Assembly: GCA_016871675.1 (NCBI GenBank) | Contig: VHCN01000027.1 | Span: 1 to 39,396, forward strand | Length of the DNA stretch: 39,396 nucleotides | Source: Verrucomicrobiota bacterium | Lineage (GTDB): Bacteria; Verrucomicrobiota; Verrucomicrobiia; Limisphaerales; VHCN01 | Direction of reading: 5' to 3' | In this document: positions 24,519 through 32,257 of the stretch, in pieces | Numbering within the stretch: position 1 is the stretch's first letter | How the letters are laid out: each line of letters starts with the position of its first letter | Notes under the pieces: model-generated | What the model was told of the DNA's origin: nothing | Databases searched by the model: none | Seen by the model: the letters and a program-made list of their open reading frames with translations, nothing else | Program-made: the position numbers and the translations under genes

Positions 24519-26513
24519 TCACGACTGCTTCAACATCCGCTTGTCCCCGTCGCGCCGCGTCACGCCGTCGCGGTCGAGCCGTTCGAGCAGCGGAATCAGG
24601 ATGCGCCGGCTTGTGCCGAGAGACTGGCGGATGTCGCTCGCCGTCGCCGGCCCCTTCGCGCGAAGGTGCGCCTTCACCGCCTCGGTCGCGCGGTGGAAAC
24701 TCTCCGCGAGCAGCACCACGTCGTCGCCCAATTCCACCGCCTCGCCCGTGTTGAGCAGGTAGCGCAGCGCCTGTTGCGTGAGTGCGTCGGGCGCGAGTTC
24801 CTTGCGCGACGGCGGTTCGAGCGGCTTCGCGGCGAGCGCGCCGCGGACCTTCGCGCCCGCGGACCGCAACTGCGGCGGCAACGCGAGCTTGTGCGAGCCG
24901 CGCCGGATCGAAGTGCCGCTCTGGGCGAAACCGCCCGCGCACAATGCCGCGACGAGCGGGTCGAACAGCTCCGGCGCGGGCAGCGACTTGAGCATGCCGG
25001 TGCGCAGTTCGCCGAGCGGAAGCCCCGGCCGGTCGGGATGCGCCTTGTGCGCCGCCTCAATCAGGCTGCCCGCGCGCTGCTGCAACGCCTGCCACCAGGC
25101 CGCGTCCACGAGCCACTCGCCGACCATCAGCGCGTGCTTCTCCGCGACGGCGCGGTGCACGGCATCCGTGATTTCCGCCGCGCCAAATCGGCTCTTCGCG
25201 AGCGACCCGGCGCGCTTGCGCGCGGCGTCGCGCGTGAGTTGCGAGCGCACGAGCGCGTCCAGCGAATCCGGCGCGGACGCGCGCGCCTGCAGAAACTTCA
25301 GCCGCGCCGCGCTGCGCGCCTGCCGCCGGCTCGCGTCGGGGTCGAGCAGGATGCCGCCCGCGAGCGTGGCCTGCTCCGACCAGTCCCGGATGATGAAACG
25401 GTCGCCAATGAACGCGAACACGGGCGACTCGAAACGCAATTGCGCCAGCGCCCGGGCGCCGGGCGCGAGCGACTTCGTGTCCAGCAACTGTGCGCGCGCC
25501 GGCGTGTTCCCGCTGCCGTGATGGACGCGCACCAGTGTGTCGTCCTTGAGCGGTCGCGCCGCGGCGACCTTGAAGGCGGGCCGCTCTCTGCTGCGCGCGC
25601 CGGATTCATCGGCCGCCTGCACGCTGACAAGGCGCGCGGACTTCTCGATGACGACGTCCCACGTGTCCGTCGCCGCGCCGAATTCGGCGAGCGTGATGAC
25701 TTCGCCGCGCGCGATGGCGTCCACGCCGGCGGTCGCGCCCTGCACGTCGGGCACGTTCACCGCGGTGCGCGTGCCGGGCACGCTCGCCTCGACGTCGCTG
25801 CTGTGGTTTTGGAGGCTGCGGATTTTTGCCGCGCGCGAACCGGGTTGCACCACGACGGCCTGCCCGCGCCTGAGCGCGCCGCCGATGAGCGTGCCGGTGA
25901 CGACGGTGCCGATGCCGCGCAGCGTGAACACACGGTCCACGGGCAGCCGCGGCTTGCCGATGTCGCGCGAGCCCGGCGCGTCCGCGAGCGCGCGGGCGAG
26001 GGCGGACTTGAGTTCCTCGATGCCGCGACCGGTGACGACCGAGGTCGGGACAATCGGCGCCCCGGCGAACGGCGTGCCCGCGAGCTGCGCGCGGAGCGCG
26101 GCGATGCTCGCGGCTTCGTCCTGCGCGAGGTCGGCCTTGGTGAGCGCGACGACCGCGCGCCCCACGCCGAGGTAGGTGAGGATTTGGAGGTGCTCCTCGG
26201 TTTGCGGCATCCAGCCGTCGTCCGCGGCCACGATGAACAGCGCCAGGTCAATCGAGCCGACGCCCGCGACCATGTTCTTCACGAAATCCTCGTGACCGGG
26301 CACGTCCACGATGCCGACGTCGAAGGTGGGCTGTGCGGCGCCGGCGTTGGGAGGTGCAAGCCGGAGGTGCGCGAAGCCGAGATCGATCGTGATGCCGCGC
26401 GCCTTCTCCTCGGGCAGGCGGTCCGGGTCCGTGCCGGTGAGCGCCTTGACGAGCGAACTCTTGCCGTGGTCCACGTGCCCGGCGGTCGCGACGATGAAGT
26501 GCTTGCTGGCCAC
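24519..26513 (-). CDS. selB: Selenocysteine-specific elongation factor SelB
   Basis: A 664-residue translational GTPase that delivers Sec-tRNA(Sec) to UGA codons with a SECIS element. GTPase motifs: AGHVDHGKS (11-19), [23 protein letters not shown] and LTKAD. EF-Tu-like domains 2 and 3 follow ([19 protein letters not shown] is diagnostic for SelB). The C-terminus (about 380-664) carries winged-helix domains that bind SECIS RNA, ending with a helix-turn-helix like segment ([38 protein letters not shown]). The GTG at 26513 is chosen because conserved sequence begins there and a promoter lies 8 bases upstream. No selA, selD or tRNA-Sec gene is visible nearby. Confidence 0.95.
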
Positions 26514-26521
26514 GGCGCGGG

Positions 26522-26549
26522 ATTGTCGGGGAGGCGCGCGGGAATTCAA
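26522..26549 (-). promoter_or_regulatory. Predicted promoter of selB
   Basis: Reverse strand TTGAAT (26549-26544), 16-base spacer, GACAAT (26527-26522), then 8 bases to the GTG at 26513. It supports selB being a separate transcript from the cytochrome-porin gene that ends at 26589. Confidence 0.45.
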
Positions 26550-26588
26550 CTGCAATGCGGCGCGCGAGCCCGCCCCGCGTGGCGGCAC

Positions 26589-29003
26589 CTACGGCCACGC
26601 CAGGGTGAGTGTCGCGAACACGCCGTGCGCGGTGTAGTCGTAGGCGGCGCCGGCGGCGGGCTCTGCGTATTGGAAGAAGCCGTATTGGAGGTTGCCGGTC
26701 GCGCGCTTGCCGAGGCGGCGGGTCACCCCGGCGAGAACGCCGTGGCGCTCGAACTCCGCGCCCGCCGGCAAGCCCGTCGCGACGTTGTTCTGCCCGTAGT
26801 CCGCGCGTGAAAACGTGTGGCTTGCGCGCAAGTCGGTCGACTCGTTCAACGTCCACGTCACGCCCGCGATGGTGCTCAGCACGCCGCCGCGAAATGGCAC
26901 CACGTAGCTCGCACCGTTTTGTGCGGTCGCCAGCCGGCTTTCGGCGTAGGAGCCGCTGACGTGGAACAACCAACCGTTCCACGGTGCGAACTGGTGTCCG
27001 GCGCTCCATACGTGCGCGTCGTAATTCCCCGCGGCGATCGCGCCGCCGGGCGTCAGCGCCGGGTAGCCATCGGTCGCGGTCGTGTAATCCGAGGCCGTGA
27101 GGCGATACGCAAGCGTCGTGCGCCACCAGCTCGCGGCCCGAAGGGCGAGGCGCGCCTCGAGTTCGTCGGTGTCGGTGTCGCGCAGCCGCAGGAATCCCGG
27201 ATACGGATGCCCGGCAGCCGGGACGACCGGGTCGATGTGGGTGTAGTCGGTCCGCTTGCTCCGGTGCCGGGCCGTCACGCTCAGCGTCACGCGTTCCCAC
27301 GGCGCGGCGTGGATTCCCGCGCGCCATTCGCGCCAGTCTCCGAGCGCGTCCGTGCGCCGGAGAAAGGGCTCGTTGCCCGCGGGTTGCTGCTCGAAGATGC
27401 CGTGATCCTCCTGCTCAAAGCGGCCTTCGGCGAAGACGACCGTGTGCGGCAAACCCGTCCAGCGGAGCGCGACATGCTCGCTCACGCGGCGCACGTCCAG
27501 GTCGCTGCGCTGCGGCGAGGCATCCGGAAACGGAACGCCGAAGAACACGACCTGCCGGTCGGCATCGCCCAACCCGCGCTGGCGCGTGAACTCGCCCTGC
27601 GCCGCGGCGGACACGGTCAAGCCGCGCCACGGCCCGGCGAGGATGCTCGCGCTCATGAGATGAGATTCCCGCTCAAGCAAGAGCTGGTTCGCGAACCACC
27701 GCTCGCCATCCACCGTGGCGCCGGCGAGGTCGGTCGTCACCTGCGACAACGCTGCGTCCGCCGAAACGCGCGAGTAGAAATACGCCGCGGAGCCCGTGAG
27801 CCATTCCTTGAACTCGCGTTCGACGCGCAGCGTGTCCGTGCCCTGGAAGCCGCGATGCGCCTCGCGCGTGGACACGAACCGGTCCGGCACCGCGCCCGGC
27901 GTCGTCACGAGGCTGACCGTGCTCTTGCGCGTCGCAAGGCCGGTGAATTCCGCGCGGAAGTAGTTTTCCACGCGCGTCCCGTCGCGTTCGGCGTCGAGGT
28001 CGAACCGGATCACGTGCGTGTGCTCGGCGATTTCCTTGAACGCCGGGAAGATCGCCTTGTTCACGCCGCCCTGCGTGGAGTCGCCCCACTCGAGCGTCGA
28101 CATCGCGCCGTCGCGGAACAGGTATTCGTAACCGACCACCATCCGGGGCAACTCCGGCCGGGTGAGGCCGAATTCGATCCACGCCCGGCCCGTGTCCAGC
28201 GAAAGATCGCGCCCGAGTCTGAAGGACGGCGTGCCGAACGGCGCGTAGTCGCCGCCCGTGTCGTGGTAGTAGCGGCGGAACTGCTCGATGCCGCCGCGGA
28301 CGAATCCGGCGTCGCCGCGCTCCCACGCGAGCCTCATGCGGTAGTCGTCGTCGAGTGGCAGCGCGCGCGCGTGGAGCGTGAGGCGCGTGTCGGGGTCGGG
28401 TTGCTGCGAGAGTTCGAGGCGCTCGAGTCCCGCGCCGAGCCCTTCGCGGAAGCCCCAGTGCTCGCGGAACACACGCTCGTTTCCGCTCACGCCCACGCCG
28501 CGGATGAACATCGCGATGCCGTGGCTGAAGCTGGACGTGGCCGATGCGGCCGGCCATGCGGCGCCTGCATCGATCCACGCGCGCAGCGTTCCAATCTCCT
28601 CCCGCGTGAGCGGCTCGCCCTTTCCCTTCGGAGGCATCTGCATGTCTTCGACGAGTCCCGCGACGTAGTGGATGAGCGGACTCCTTGCGCTGTGGCCGGG
28701 AATCAGCGCCACGCCGCCCGCGCCGCCCTTGAGCGCGGACGCCGCGTTGTCGAGGCGGAAGCGGCCCTTCGGCCGCGCGGCGCCGTGGCAGCGGAGGCAG
28801 GATTTCTCGAAGATCGGCTGGATGTCGCGCGCGAACTCCACCGGCGCTTCGGACGCGGGCGGAAGTTTTGAGAAATCGGGCGGGGCGGAGAACAGACGAA
28901 GGGACGTGAGACAAAGAGCGATGGCCAGATGCGGGATGCGCGATGCGGAATGCGGAACGCTGGAAACCGGATCCTTCCCCGTGATGTCACCCCGCGCGCT
29001 CAT
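26589..29003 (-). CDS. Outer-membrane beta-barrel with N-terminal monoheme cytochrome c domain
   Basis: An 804-residue protein. A signal segment lies at about residues 24-40. Residues about 54-151 are a planctomycete-type cytochrome c (PSCyt1-like) domain: heme site CLRCH (Cys69, Cys72, His73), then [14 protein letters not shown] and the likely axial Met123 in [13 protein letters not shown], closing with [12 protein letters not shown]. From about 160 to the end the sequence is a long series of amphipathic strands with aromatic girdles ([42 protein letters not shown]) ending in [10 protein letters not shown]. Barrel size (about 640 residues) is like MtrB/DmsF porins. Its ATG lies directly after the TGA of the octaheme gene, so the pair is co-translated. 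Probable outer-membrane electron conduit component. Confidence 0.78.
28928..28962 (+). repeat. Heptamer array in the signal-peptide region of the cytochrome-porin gene
   Basis: Five 7-base units in tandem: GATGCGG, GATGCGC, GATGCGG, AATGCGG, AACGCTG. Read on the coding (reverse) strand it gives residues about 14-25 (AFRIPH-like codons: HSASRIPHL). Neighbouring sequence 28895-28927 continues a degraded 7-base rhythm. Confidence 0.55.
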
Positions 29004-29792
29004 TCAGTATCGCAGCTTGTGGTCCGCGTTGGACCCGTGGATTGAAGTGTGGCACCCCGCGGACCAGCAGGTGCCGCGGCGCATGAAATCGGTGTGGCGC
29101 GTGGAGCCGATGTAAATCTCACCCGCCGGAAAACCCGCGCCCTGCACCTGCGCGTGACAGCGGAGGCAGAGGTTCGCGTCGCGTTGCGTGAGCAGCTTGG
29201 CGTTGATGGACCCGTGCGGGTTGTGGCAGGTGGTGCAGCCTTCGCGAAGCGCCTGATGCTCGAAGACAAACCGCCGCGACTGCTCGCGGTGACATTCGGC
29301 GCACGATTCGTTGAGCCGCGCGAGCGCGAGGCCGCGCGACGGCTTGCGGATGTCCGCGCCGTGCGGGTCGTGGCAGTGCGCGCAGTTCAGCCGGCCCCCG
29401 CCGAGCGGGTGATGATGCGGGAGGTTGAACTCCGCGTGCGTTTGCAGGTGGCAGTCGAGGCAAACCTTGGCGTCATCGCGCGGGTTGACGATCCAACGCC
29501 GGTCGCCACCTGATGCGATGTGGCGGCTGCCGGGCCCGTGGCAGGACTCACAACCGGTCATGCCCGCGCTGCGCCCGGATTCGCGATGGAACTTCCCGTG
29601 CGCGCTCGCGGCAAACACGCGCGTGTAGTTGGTGTGGCACTCGGAGCAGGACCGGTTGCCGGTGAAGTGCGCGCCCTCGACTTGCGGCGGGATCGCAACC
29701 GTGCGCCGGACGCTCGAGCACGAGAGCAGGAGCGCCGACGAGATCGCCGCGGCGAACCCGGCCGCGAGTGGCCATGCAAGGCGTGCCTTCAT
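29004..29792 (-). CDS. Octaheme c-type cytochrome lipoprotein, DmsE/MtrA-like
   Basis: A 262-residue exported protein. The signal peptide ends in the lipobox LLSC with Cys25 as acylation site; Ser26 favours outer-membrane sorting. Seven CXXCH heme sites are seen, at Cys49, Cys81, Cys111, Cys137, Cys164, Cys186 and Cys209, plus a CX4CH site (CWSAGCH, Cys242). CX4CH hemes are known from cytochromes c3. Many additional His residues (NLPHHHPLGGG, FEHQALREG, NPHGS) could be axial ligands. Motifs such as CHDPHGAD and CHNPHGS are typical of DmsE/MtrA-family periplasmic multiheme cytochromes, which normally carry ten hemes. ATG 29792 gives a normal signal peptide; 29810 is an alternative. It is directly followed by the cytochrome-porin. 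Confidence 0.88.
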   Translation of the reverse strand: MKARLAWPLAAGFAAAISSALLLSCSSVRRTVAIPPQVEGAHFTGNRSCSECHTNYTRVFAASAHGKFHRESGRSAGMTGCESCHGPGSRHIASGGDRRWIVNPRDDAKVCLDCHLQTHAEFNLPHHHPLGGGRLNCAHCHDPHGADIRKPSRGLALARLNESCAECHREQSRRFVFEHQALREGCTTCHNPHGSINAKLLTQRDANLCLRCHAQVQGAGFPAGEIYIGSTRHTDFMRRGTCWSAGCHTSIHGSNADHKLRY

Positions 29793-29908
29793 GCGTCGGC
29801 ACCGAAGCATCGGGAATCAAAGGCCGGCACGGGGAAAAGCACGCCGGGAGTGTGGGGAAGGCGTCCGGTGAATTCAAGCCGCGGGGCGTCGGTTGGCCGA
29901 GTTGGGGA

Positions 29909-29937
29909 TTGAGCCGGACACGTCGCGCCCGTATCCT
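29909..29937 (+). promoter_or_regulatory. Predicted promoter of the FG-GAP gene
   Basis: TTGAGC (29909-29914), 17-base spacer, TATCCT (29932-29937), then 13 bases to the ATG at 29951. The -10 is identical to that of dacB. It lies in the 158-base divergent gap with the octaheme cytochrome gene. Confidence 0.5.
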
Positions 29938-29950
29938 GCCGCGCACCCGA

Positions 29951-32257
29951 ATGAAACTTCTCCCCGTCCTGTTGCTTGCGGCCACGGTCGGTCCGACAAC
30001 AACGACTCGCGCCGCGGACGCCGCGACGAACCGCTTCAGCTTCGCCGGTCCGGAAATCTTCCCGTTGTCGCCGCAGATTGTCGGCCTCGCCGCTGCCGAC
30101 CTCGATGGCGACGGCAGGCTCGACTTGATCACCGCAAACAACACGCAGTCGAAGATCGCGCTGCTCTACAACCAAACCGGCCGCACCAACCCCGCGCCGC
30201 GTGCCCGCGCCGCGAAGCGCGAACTCAACGAGCTTCCCGCCGACGCGCGTTTCCGCATCGAGTCGATCGCCTCGGAGAAGCGCATCACGAGCCTCGCCGT
30301 CACCGATCTCAACGGCGACGGCCGGCCCGACATCGCCTACTACGGTGAGCCGCGCGAGTTGATCGTGCTCACCAACCGCGGCACCAACGGCTGGAGCCAG
30401 CCGCGGCGCATCCCGCTCGACGACGGGCAGACCACCGCGGGCGCGCTCACGCACGGCGACCTCAACGGCGACCGGCGCACGGACCTGCTGCTGCTGGCTG
30501 AAACGCACCTGTGGTTCATCGCGCAGAAGGCCGACCACGGGCTGGCCGAGCCGGTGAAGATCCCGTTCACCGGCGGCATCAAGGCCGCGCAGGTGCTCGA
30601 CATCAACGGCGACGGGCGGGACGACTTGTTGCTCGTGAACTGGGACAACGCCGTGCCGTTCCGGTTCCGGCTCCAGCTTTCCGATGGACAACTCGGGCCC
30701 GAGGTGCACTTCCAGCACCCGCCCGTGCGCGCCTACTGGGCCGATGATCTCGACGCCGACCGCCGCGCCGAGATCATCACGATCGCGCAAAACTCGGGCC
30801 GCGCATCGGTGGCCAACTTCATCCAGAAGCCCGCCGGGCCGCTGCTGGCGACATTCAAGCTCGGCCAGTTCGCCGTCACGCCGCTCGGCAAGTCCGAGAA
30901 ATCCCGCCGTGGCGTCGCGTGGGCCGACGTGAACGGTGACAAGCTCACCGACCTTGTCGTGGCCGAGCCGGAGAGCGGCCAGCTTGCGATCACGCTGCAG
31001 AATGCCGACGGCAGCTTCGGCGCCACACGGCGGTCCCCGACTTTCACGGGCGTGAGCGACGTCGCGATCGCGGATTGGGACGGCGACGGCCGGCCGGAGA
31101 TTTTTCTGCTCAGCGCGGATGAGCGGCAGGCCGGCGTGACGCGGCTCGAGCCGAACGGCCGCGTCGGCTTCCCGCGAATCCTCCCGACCGATGGCAAGCC
31201 GCTCGCGTTCGCCGCGGGCGCGCTCAAGCCCGGCGCCCGTCCCGTGCTTGCGCTCATCGTGGACCACGACGGCCGCCGCGCGCTGCAGGTCCACTCCGCG
31301 GACGGCGCGCGCCGCGAGCAGAAGCTCGCCGAGTCATTCAAGTCGAACCCGGCCGCGCTCGCCGTTCACGACGCGAACCAGGACGGCTTGCCCGACCTCG
31401 CCATCCTCACGCCTTATGAAAAGTTGAAGCTCCTGCTGCAAGCCGCGGACAAGGACTTCGAGGAAGTGGACGTGACGCCGCCCGGGGGCGCGACCGAGCA
31501 GCCGTGGTTCAGCGCGGCGGACGTGGACGGCGACGGCAAGCCCGAGTTGCTGCTCGCGCAGAAGAACTTCGTCCGCGCCGTCGTGCTCGCGCGCGAGTCC
31601 AGACCCGCGGGCGGCGACGCGAAGTCCACGTGGACCTTCACGGTGAAGGAGCAGATCAACGGGGCCGCGCCGAATTCGCGGATCGTCGCCGCATTCGCGC
31701 TGCGCACCGGGAGCCAGACCGTCCTTTTCCTGCTGGATGCCGAGCGCAAGTCACTCTCCGCCTGCGAGCGGGATTCCGCGGGCGTGTGGCAGATCGTGAA
31801 AAATGCGCCGCTGCCGGTCACCGATTTCAATGCGCTCGCGCCGATCGCCGGCGCGGGGACGCAACCTGCGAGCCTCGGCTTCATCGGGCTCAACGCCGCG
31901 GCCTCGCTCGCGTTGCACGGCAACGTGTGGGAGTTGAAGGAACTCGACAGCTACGAAACGCCGATCAAGGACGGCCGGCTCATGGACGTGGTGACGGGCG
32001 ACTTGAACAAGGATGGCCGCAAGGACCTCGTTTTCCTCGAGACCGCGAAGAATCACCTCGACCTGGTGACGTTTGACCCGCCGCACAAGCTCACGCCCGC
32101 GAACCGCTGGCAGGTGTTCGAGGAGCGGACCTTTCGCAGCCGCCGCAGCGACCTGCCCGAACCGCGCGAGGCGCTCATCGTGGACGTGACGGGCGACGGG
32201 AAGAACGACCTCGTGGTCGTCGTGCACGACCGGATCCTCGTGTATCCACAGGACTGA
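29951..32257 (+). CDS. Secreted FG-GAP/VCBS repeat protein
   Basis: A 768-residue protein with a signal peptide (MKLLPVLLLAATVGPTTTT...AA). It is built of repeated beta-propeller blades with calcium-binding DxDxDG-type loops: DLDGDGRLDLI, DLNGDGRPDIA, DLNGDRRTDLL, DINGDGRDDLL, DVNGDKLTDLV, DWDGDGRPEIF, DVDGDGKPELL, DLNKDGRKDLVF and DVTGDGKNDLVV. This integrin-alpha-like pattern points to an extracellular or periplasmic binding protein. No enzyme domain is seen. It is divergent from the octaheme cytochrome, but no shared regulatory site is evident, so a functional link is open. ATG 29951 is supported by the signal peptide and promoter. Confidence 0.88.
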   Translation: MKLLPVLLLAATVGPTTTTRAADAATNRFSFAGPEIFPLSPQIVGLAAADLDGDGRLDLITANNTQSKIALLYNQTGRTNPAPRARAAKRELNELPADARFRIESIASEKRITSLAVTDLNGDGRPDIAYYGEPRELIVLTNRGTNGWSQPRRIPLDDGQTTAGALTHGDLNGDRRTDLLLLAETHLWFIAQKADHGLAEPVKIPFTGGIKAAQVLDINGDGRDDLLLVNWDNAVPFRFRLQLSDGQLGPEVHFQHPPVRAYWADDLDADRRAEIITIAQNSGRASVANFIQKPAGPLLATFKLGQFAVTPLGKSEKSRRGVAWADVNGDKLTDLVVAEPESGQLAITLQNADGSFGATRRSPTFTGVSDVAIADWDGDGRPEIFLLSADERQAGVTRLEPNGRVGFPRILPTDGKPLAFAAGALKPGARPVLALIVDHDGRRALQVHSADGARREQKLAESFKSNPAALAVHDANQDGLPDLAILTPYEKLKLLLQAADKDFEEVDVTPPGGATEQPWFSAADVDGDGKPELLLAQKNFVRAVVLARESRPAGGDAKSTWTFTVKEQINGAAPNSRIVAAFALRTGSQTVLFLLDAERKSLSACERDSAGVWQIVKNAPLPVTDFNALAPIAGAGTQPASLGFIGLNAAASLALHGNVWELKELDSYETPIKDGRLMDVVTGDLNKDGRKDLVFLETAKNHLDLVTFDPPHKLTPANRWQVFEERTFRSRRSDLPEPREALIVDVTGDGKNDLVVVVHDRILVYPQD

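Follow-up and report, generated by a model that had tools for sequence, protein, structure and literature searches.

Does a porin that carries a heme of its own belong to an outer-membrane electron conduit, and, if so, which partners does it serve and in which direction would electrons pass? In the accepted view, an MtrAB-type conduit is a multiheme wire inside a sheath that bears no heme, and the locus considered here, lying in a 39,396-nucleotide stretch of Verrucomicrobiota DNA (hereafter the window), was predicted from its letters alone to depart from that plan.

Reading of the open reading frames confirmed the outline of the original prediction. On the reverse strand, an octaheme c-type cytochrome lipoprotein of the MtrA/DmsE superfamily (29004..29810) is separated by nothing but its TGA stop codon from the ATG of an 804-residue fused cytochrome-porin (26589..29003). 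The octaheme frame starts at 29810, position 29792 being the second Met of the same frame, and it holds seven CXXCH motifs and one CX4CH motif, the latter being the last of the series (CWSAGCH). The lipid anchor claimed for this protein is likewise borne out by a lipobox, LLSC followed by SS, whose Cys is predicted to be lipidated (29718..29729 on the reverse strand, approximate codon positions), and a lipobox-like Cys shortly ahead of the first heme is conserved in most octahemes of the family. Within the porin, also on the reverse strand, a PSCyt1 monoheme domain (PF07635; 28623..28799) precedes a predicted 26-strand, MtrB-like outer-membrane barrel (residues 158-804; 26592..28532), assigned by AlphaFold2 and a PDB match. 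Besides the octaheme, no further multiheme frame was found in the 39-kb window. The gene directly downstream of the porin is selB, for the selenocysteine elongation factor (24519-26588, reverse strand), and a divergent gene for an 829-residue FG-GAP repeat protein lies upstream of the octaheme (29768-32257, forward strand). Selenocysteine read-through of the octaheme's TGA was ruled out because relatives with the same in-frame layout stop with TAA or TAG at that place.

Relatives were gathered from 58 genomes of the order and from 39 named loci, Pedosphaera and Limisphaerales being among the named relatives. After deduplication the set comprised 57 fused and 40 unfused records; of the latter, two make up a single split porin (L114), and two others (L029 and L069) are truncated at contig ends. 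The fused porins form one Verrucomicrobiota clade (SH-aLRT 99, by a quick tree method), which includes L029 and L069; these were rejected as unfused members of the clade, the contig ends cutting both genes before the CXXCH. The heme-porin fusion arose once, and it is conserved far beyond chance: all 57 distinct fused homologues have both the CXXCH and an MPP motif, with the heme 86-95 residues ahead of the barrel. Phylum-level relatives of the barrel in other families are unfused. It had been suggested that related genomes be searched for the fusion, and that its absence, together with a lack of linkage between the two genes, would speak against a conduit; many genomes proved to hold it beside an MtrA/DmsE-like cytochrome, the octaheme gene lying directly upstream in 54 of the 57 and the remaining three being at contig ends.

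Several members of the wider family are of interest in their own right. Eight genomes carry fused and unfused conduits at separate loci (G010, G011, G013, G025, G046, G048, G050 and G051), and one locus (L073) has two unfused porin-octaheme pairs in tandem. The split barrel gene of L114, two frames downstream of a 13-heme gene, may be a pseudogene or a frameshift, and the unfused pair of L075, whose contig bears the label Desulfuromonadales, may reflect either inter-phylum transfer or a binning error.

Sequence gives little indication of what kind of barrel this is. A Pfam search of the window's porin assigned the barrel part to no family, and neither PF11854 nor TIGR03509 matched the protein. 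Among 30 relatives, PF11854 matched four (best 3.6e-6) and TIGR03509 two, all below threshold, and a control MtrB from a Photobacterium MtrCAB cluster (L043) matched PF11854 at 9e-153. Profile comparison of the window's barrel with that control gave a probability of 13%, which is not significant, over a partial alignment. The comparison with MtrB/PioB porins that had been proposed as a check gave no match for the window's protein and sub-threshold ones for a few relatives; at this level kinship with MtrB is faint, being barely visible. The predicted structure is more informative. An AlphaFold2 model built on a 30-sequence alignment (mean pLDDT 84.8, pTM 0.76, strands mostly above 90) has 26 strands across residues 158-803. 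In a Foldseek search against the PDB its best match was MtrB (6r2q_B; E = 2.7e-14, TM 0.67 by target length), followed by TonB receptors with TM of about 0.4. In MtrB itself (PMC7198977) the first four of the 26 strands are short, and a small helix parts strand 1 from strand 2; in the model, too, the early strands are short and a helix (176-183) lies between the first two. The model thus supports a wide, MtrB-like barrel, in agreement with the large barrel originally seen in these roughly 640 residues and in answer to the concern that they might not close or might be too narrow for a cytochrome.

For the octaheme the relationship is much clearer. Its best solved relative is MtrA (6r2q_A; E = 3.5e-29), and it is 31% identical to the MtrA of the Photobacterium MtrCAB cluster. 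Its best NCBIfam match is the GSU2203 family, NF041028, at 3.6e-45 and 154.5 bits, under the cut-off of 325 bits. Heme-by-heme alignment found MtrA hemes 3 and 4 missing in all 90 octahemes of the family and hemes 1, 2 and 5-10 kept (heme 1 aligned in 88 of the 90, the other two genes being cut or divergent at the start). By alignment, then, the octaheme is an MtrA homologue minus MtrA hemes 3 and 4; the MtrA side of the DmsE/MtrA likeness first suggested for it held up, and the DmsE side fell below that family's cut-off. We infer that the barrel encloses the octaheme in the way that MtrB encloses MtrA. This placement draws on homology, since an AlphaFold model of the pair, linked as one chain through the TGA and built with 35 paired rows, left the octaheme at pLDDT of about 30-50; the same model reproduced the barrel and the PSCyt1 domain.

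What sets the porin apart is its N-terminus. Pfam places PSCyt1 at residues 69-127 (E = 4.8e-14), as expected from the monoheme domain originally described there; the heme motif, CLRCH, occupies residues 69-73, and the MPP at residues 123-125 contributes the Met predicted to be the sixth heme ligand. A CXXCH followed by MPP is the pattern of His/Met-ligated class I cytochromes c, normally of high potential, and the hemes of MtrA-type cytochromes are bis-His. Because His/Met ligation is predicted, the pair's ninth heme is also predicted to be of high potential, the potentials being read from the ligands only. Three fused porins (L063, L065 and L072) have two PSCyt1 domains in tandem and are thus diheme porins. 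For Cyc2 it has been argued that an even number of strands leaves the N-terminus on the periplasmic side (PMC8406198); a barrel of 26 strands would therefore place PSCyt1 in the periplasm.

We compared the neighbours of fused and unfused pairs at loci with at least 3 kb of sequence upstream and at least 2.5 kb downstream (26 fused, 35 unfused). An extra multiheme gene was present at 28 of the 35 unfused loci and at none of the 26 fused ones (Fisher p = 4e-11, ignoring relatedness), so that the lack of an MtrC-like gene pointed out for the window's pair holds throughout the clade. Multihemes of the NapC type, confirmed by PF03264, occurred at 15/35 unfused and 0/26 fused loci. The reverse was found for the motif of cupredoxins (plastocyanin-like copper proteins), present at 13 of the 26 fused loci, missing beside the other half, and at none of the 35 unfused loci. 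This is a count of the copper-ligand motif, with eight loci matching a strict pattern and 13 a pattern with loosened loop lengths; a profile-based count of 15/26 was dropped as it included non-copper frames. Pfam's Copper-bind family (PF00127) scored above cut-off in several linked cupredoxins and just below it in others. Matches to the MHC_cytb profile in fused loci were ignored as cross-matches to the octaheme. Because the fused porins form one clade, the change of neighbours amounts in effect to one or a few evolutionary changes.

Genes recurring at fused loci are those for the cupredoxin, SCO1/CusF, an ECF sigma factor and its partner, an RdgB-like protein, a pseudopilin and valS, with SCO1-CusF found at 8/26 and the ECF sigma factor at 11/26. 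At several loci (L056, L058, L059, L061, L066 and others) the ECF sigma factor with its partner, SCO1-CusF and the cupredoxin are clustered upstream of the fused pair, an arrangement that suggests a regulon responding to copper or redox state. No cupredoxin gene adjoins the window's own pair, although L142, its nearest relative in the tree, has such a gene 15 bp downstream. The cupredoxins of L049, L142 and L078 contain Ig-like domains, which are unusual in a plain carrier of the periplasm, and because of these domains a surface location is possible for the linked cupredoxins. Unfused conduits (L110, L112, L113, L118 and others) are linked to 11- or 13-heme proteins and to NapC-type multihemes, apparently forming a complete quinone-to-surface route, and one such 11/13-heme protein has a CbcL-like fusion to a membrane domain resembling cytochrome b561.

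Taken as a whole, we consider it probable that the fused pair is a two-protein conduit across the outer membrane, of the MtrAB type but with an additional high-potential heme on the periplasmic side and with copper or cytochrome c partners, working more likely inward. The original prediction of a conduit of different design, with nine hemes in two polypeptides, stands as to architecture; electron transfer itself is what we propose. The 26-strand porin would sheathe the octaheme wire, anchored by its N-terminal lipid at the periplasmic leaflet, and PSCyt1 would hang at the periplasmic mouth of the barrel, supplying the ninth heme and presumably trading electrons with monoheme cytochromes or cupredoxins of the periplasm. 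Three features, the His/Met pattern, the copper genes nearby and the missing NapC and MtrC partners, speak for exchange with a periplasmic pool of high potential and, less surely, for inward flow, to which we give a slight edge over outward flow. Electrons given up outside the cell, for instance by Fe(II) or reduced humics, might then pass through the octaheme and PSCyt1 to the cytochrome c/copper pool and on to an aa3 or cbb3 oxidase. The window's genome has two heme-copper oxidases, whose frames read as aa3-type and cbb3-type, and two other copper-binding proteins elsewhere; it has no second octaheme of this kind.

The main competitor is the same conduit run outward, which we regard as a real if minority prospect. 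Quinol would be oxidized by alternative complex III or another enzyme, and electrons would reach the porin's PSCyt1 by way of a periplasmic cytochrome or PSCyt1 enzymes and leave through the octaheme to humics, Fe(III) or Mn(IV) outside. The 44 matches to the PSCyt1 domain in the genome could supply such electrons, and in their account of related porin-multiheme clusters in Verrucomicrobia of a humic bog hypolimnion, He et al. propose outward transfer (PMC5615132). However, a NapC/NirT quinol dehydrogenase is found neither in the window's genome nor beside the 26 fused loci, in contrast to 15 of the 35 unfused ones, and electrons leaving a His/Met heme of presumed high potential for bis-His hemes would have to move uphill.

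Two further readings fare considerably worse. The copper genes (SCO1-CusF and cupredoxin) beside fused loci, together with the rank of TonB receptors as second-best structural class, would fit a TonB-like or porin barrel that serves as a copper-related importer or receptor, with the hemes as an accessory reductase for metal uptake. We consider this improbable: the model has 26 strands and not 22, and is without a TonB-type plug domain, MtrB leads the structural matches by a clear margin, and every complete locus encodes a wire of the MtrA type. Marginally less credible still is a DmsEF-type respiratory system in the outer membrane, in which the octaheme would serve an extracellular or periplasmic enzyme encoded elsewhere. 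The octaheme does match the DmsE family profile, TIGR03508, at 3.3e-43, but its 148 bits fall short of the cut-off of 192, and no conserved oxidoreductase gene adjoins the fused loci. That two unrelated genes were joined by gene prediction or assembly is a reading that nothing spoke for, and it can be dismissed, given the conservation of 57 distinct fused genes in independent assemblies, with a fixed heme-to-barrel spacing and in a single clade.

The conduit we propose shares features with several known systems. He et al. (2017) described, in Verrucomicrobia, a porin predicted to have 20 or more strands beside a periplasmic octaheme, sometimes with an extracellular multiheme gene (PMC5615132; also PMC6344600). 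Our unfused sister branch, of the same phylum and with the same basic pair, is probably that system, matched by description. The strand number and octaheme given there would fit the window's pair as well; the text of the paper makes no mention of a heme on the porin, which the window's porin carries, and unfused loci usually have further multiheme genes where fused loci have none. With MtrAB, MtoAB, PioAB and DmsEF the pair shares the predicted 26-strand barrel with the same early-strand details, an MtrA-homologous cytochrome with C-terminal hemes 5-10, and adjacency of the genes. It differs in having eight hemes instead of ten, a cytochrome that is a lipoprotein and ends in a CX4CH motif, a heme domain on a porin whose sequence lies below the MtrB_PioB cut-off, and no MtrC. 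Cyc2, described as unique as a fused cytochrome-porin by Keffer et al. (2021; PMC8406198), likewise has one c-heme domain at its N-terminus, presumably facing the periplasm, joined to an outer-membrane barrel (PMC8406198). Yet its barrel is of 16 strands and functions with no multiheme partner, whereas the window's pair has an MtrB-like 26, PSCyt1 and an octaheme encoded alongside.

In Geobacter, the GSU2203/GSU2204 pair, compared here through the NCBIfam profiles NF041028 and NF041027, has a decaheme partner in place of the octaheme. NF041027, an MtrB/PioB-type barrel annotated as CXXCH-containing, matched six of 30 barrels (best 2.6e-5, far below cut-off); since the profile is only 580 positions long, a separate cytochrome domain of 100 residues is not expected in it. 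The GSU2204 porin family includes selenoproteins, and selB adjoins the window's porin. We found no paper on a PSCyt1-porin fusion in the open-access papers searched, most subscription journals and preprints being outside that scope. The Verrucomicrobia porin-octaheme pair having already been published (PMC5615132), what is new is that the porin is fused to a heme domain and that the set of partners has changed.

The fused pair combines two designs, the sheath and wire of MtrAB and the heme-porin of Cyc2, in one clade spread over many Verrucomicrobiota genomes. Tentatively, it may even represent a distinct class of conduit, an MtrB-type sheath with its own high-potential heme gate, in which an extracellular or periplasmic blue-copper protein would stand in for the surface cytochrome of the MtrC type as well as for the quinol dehydrogenase of the NapC type. 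If that were true, many Verrucomicrobiota would be electron-uptake organisms, lithotrophic or mixotrophic. Should the pair work as proposed, it would offer a natural example of a multiheme wire rewired at its periplasmic end, with a direction of flow testable from the potential of one heme, and a phylum not usually counted as electroactive would join the list.
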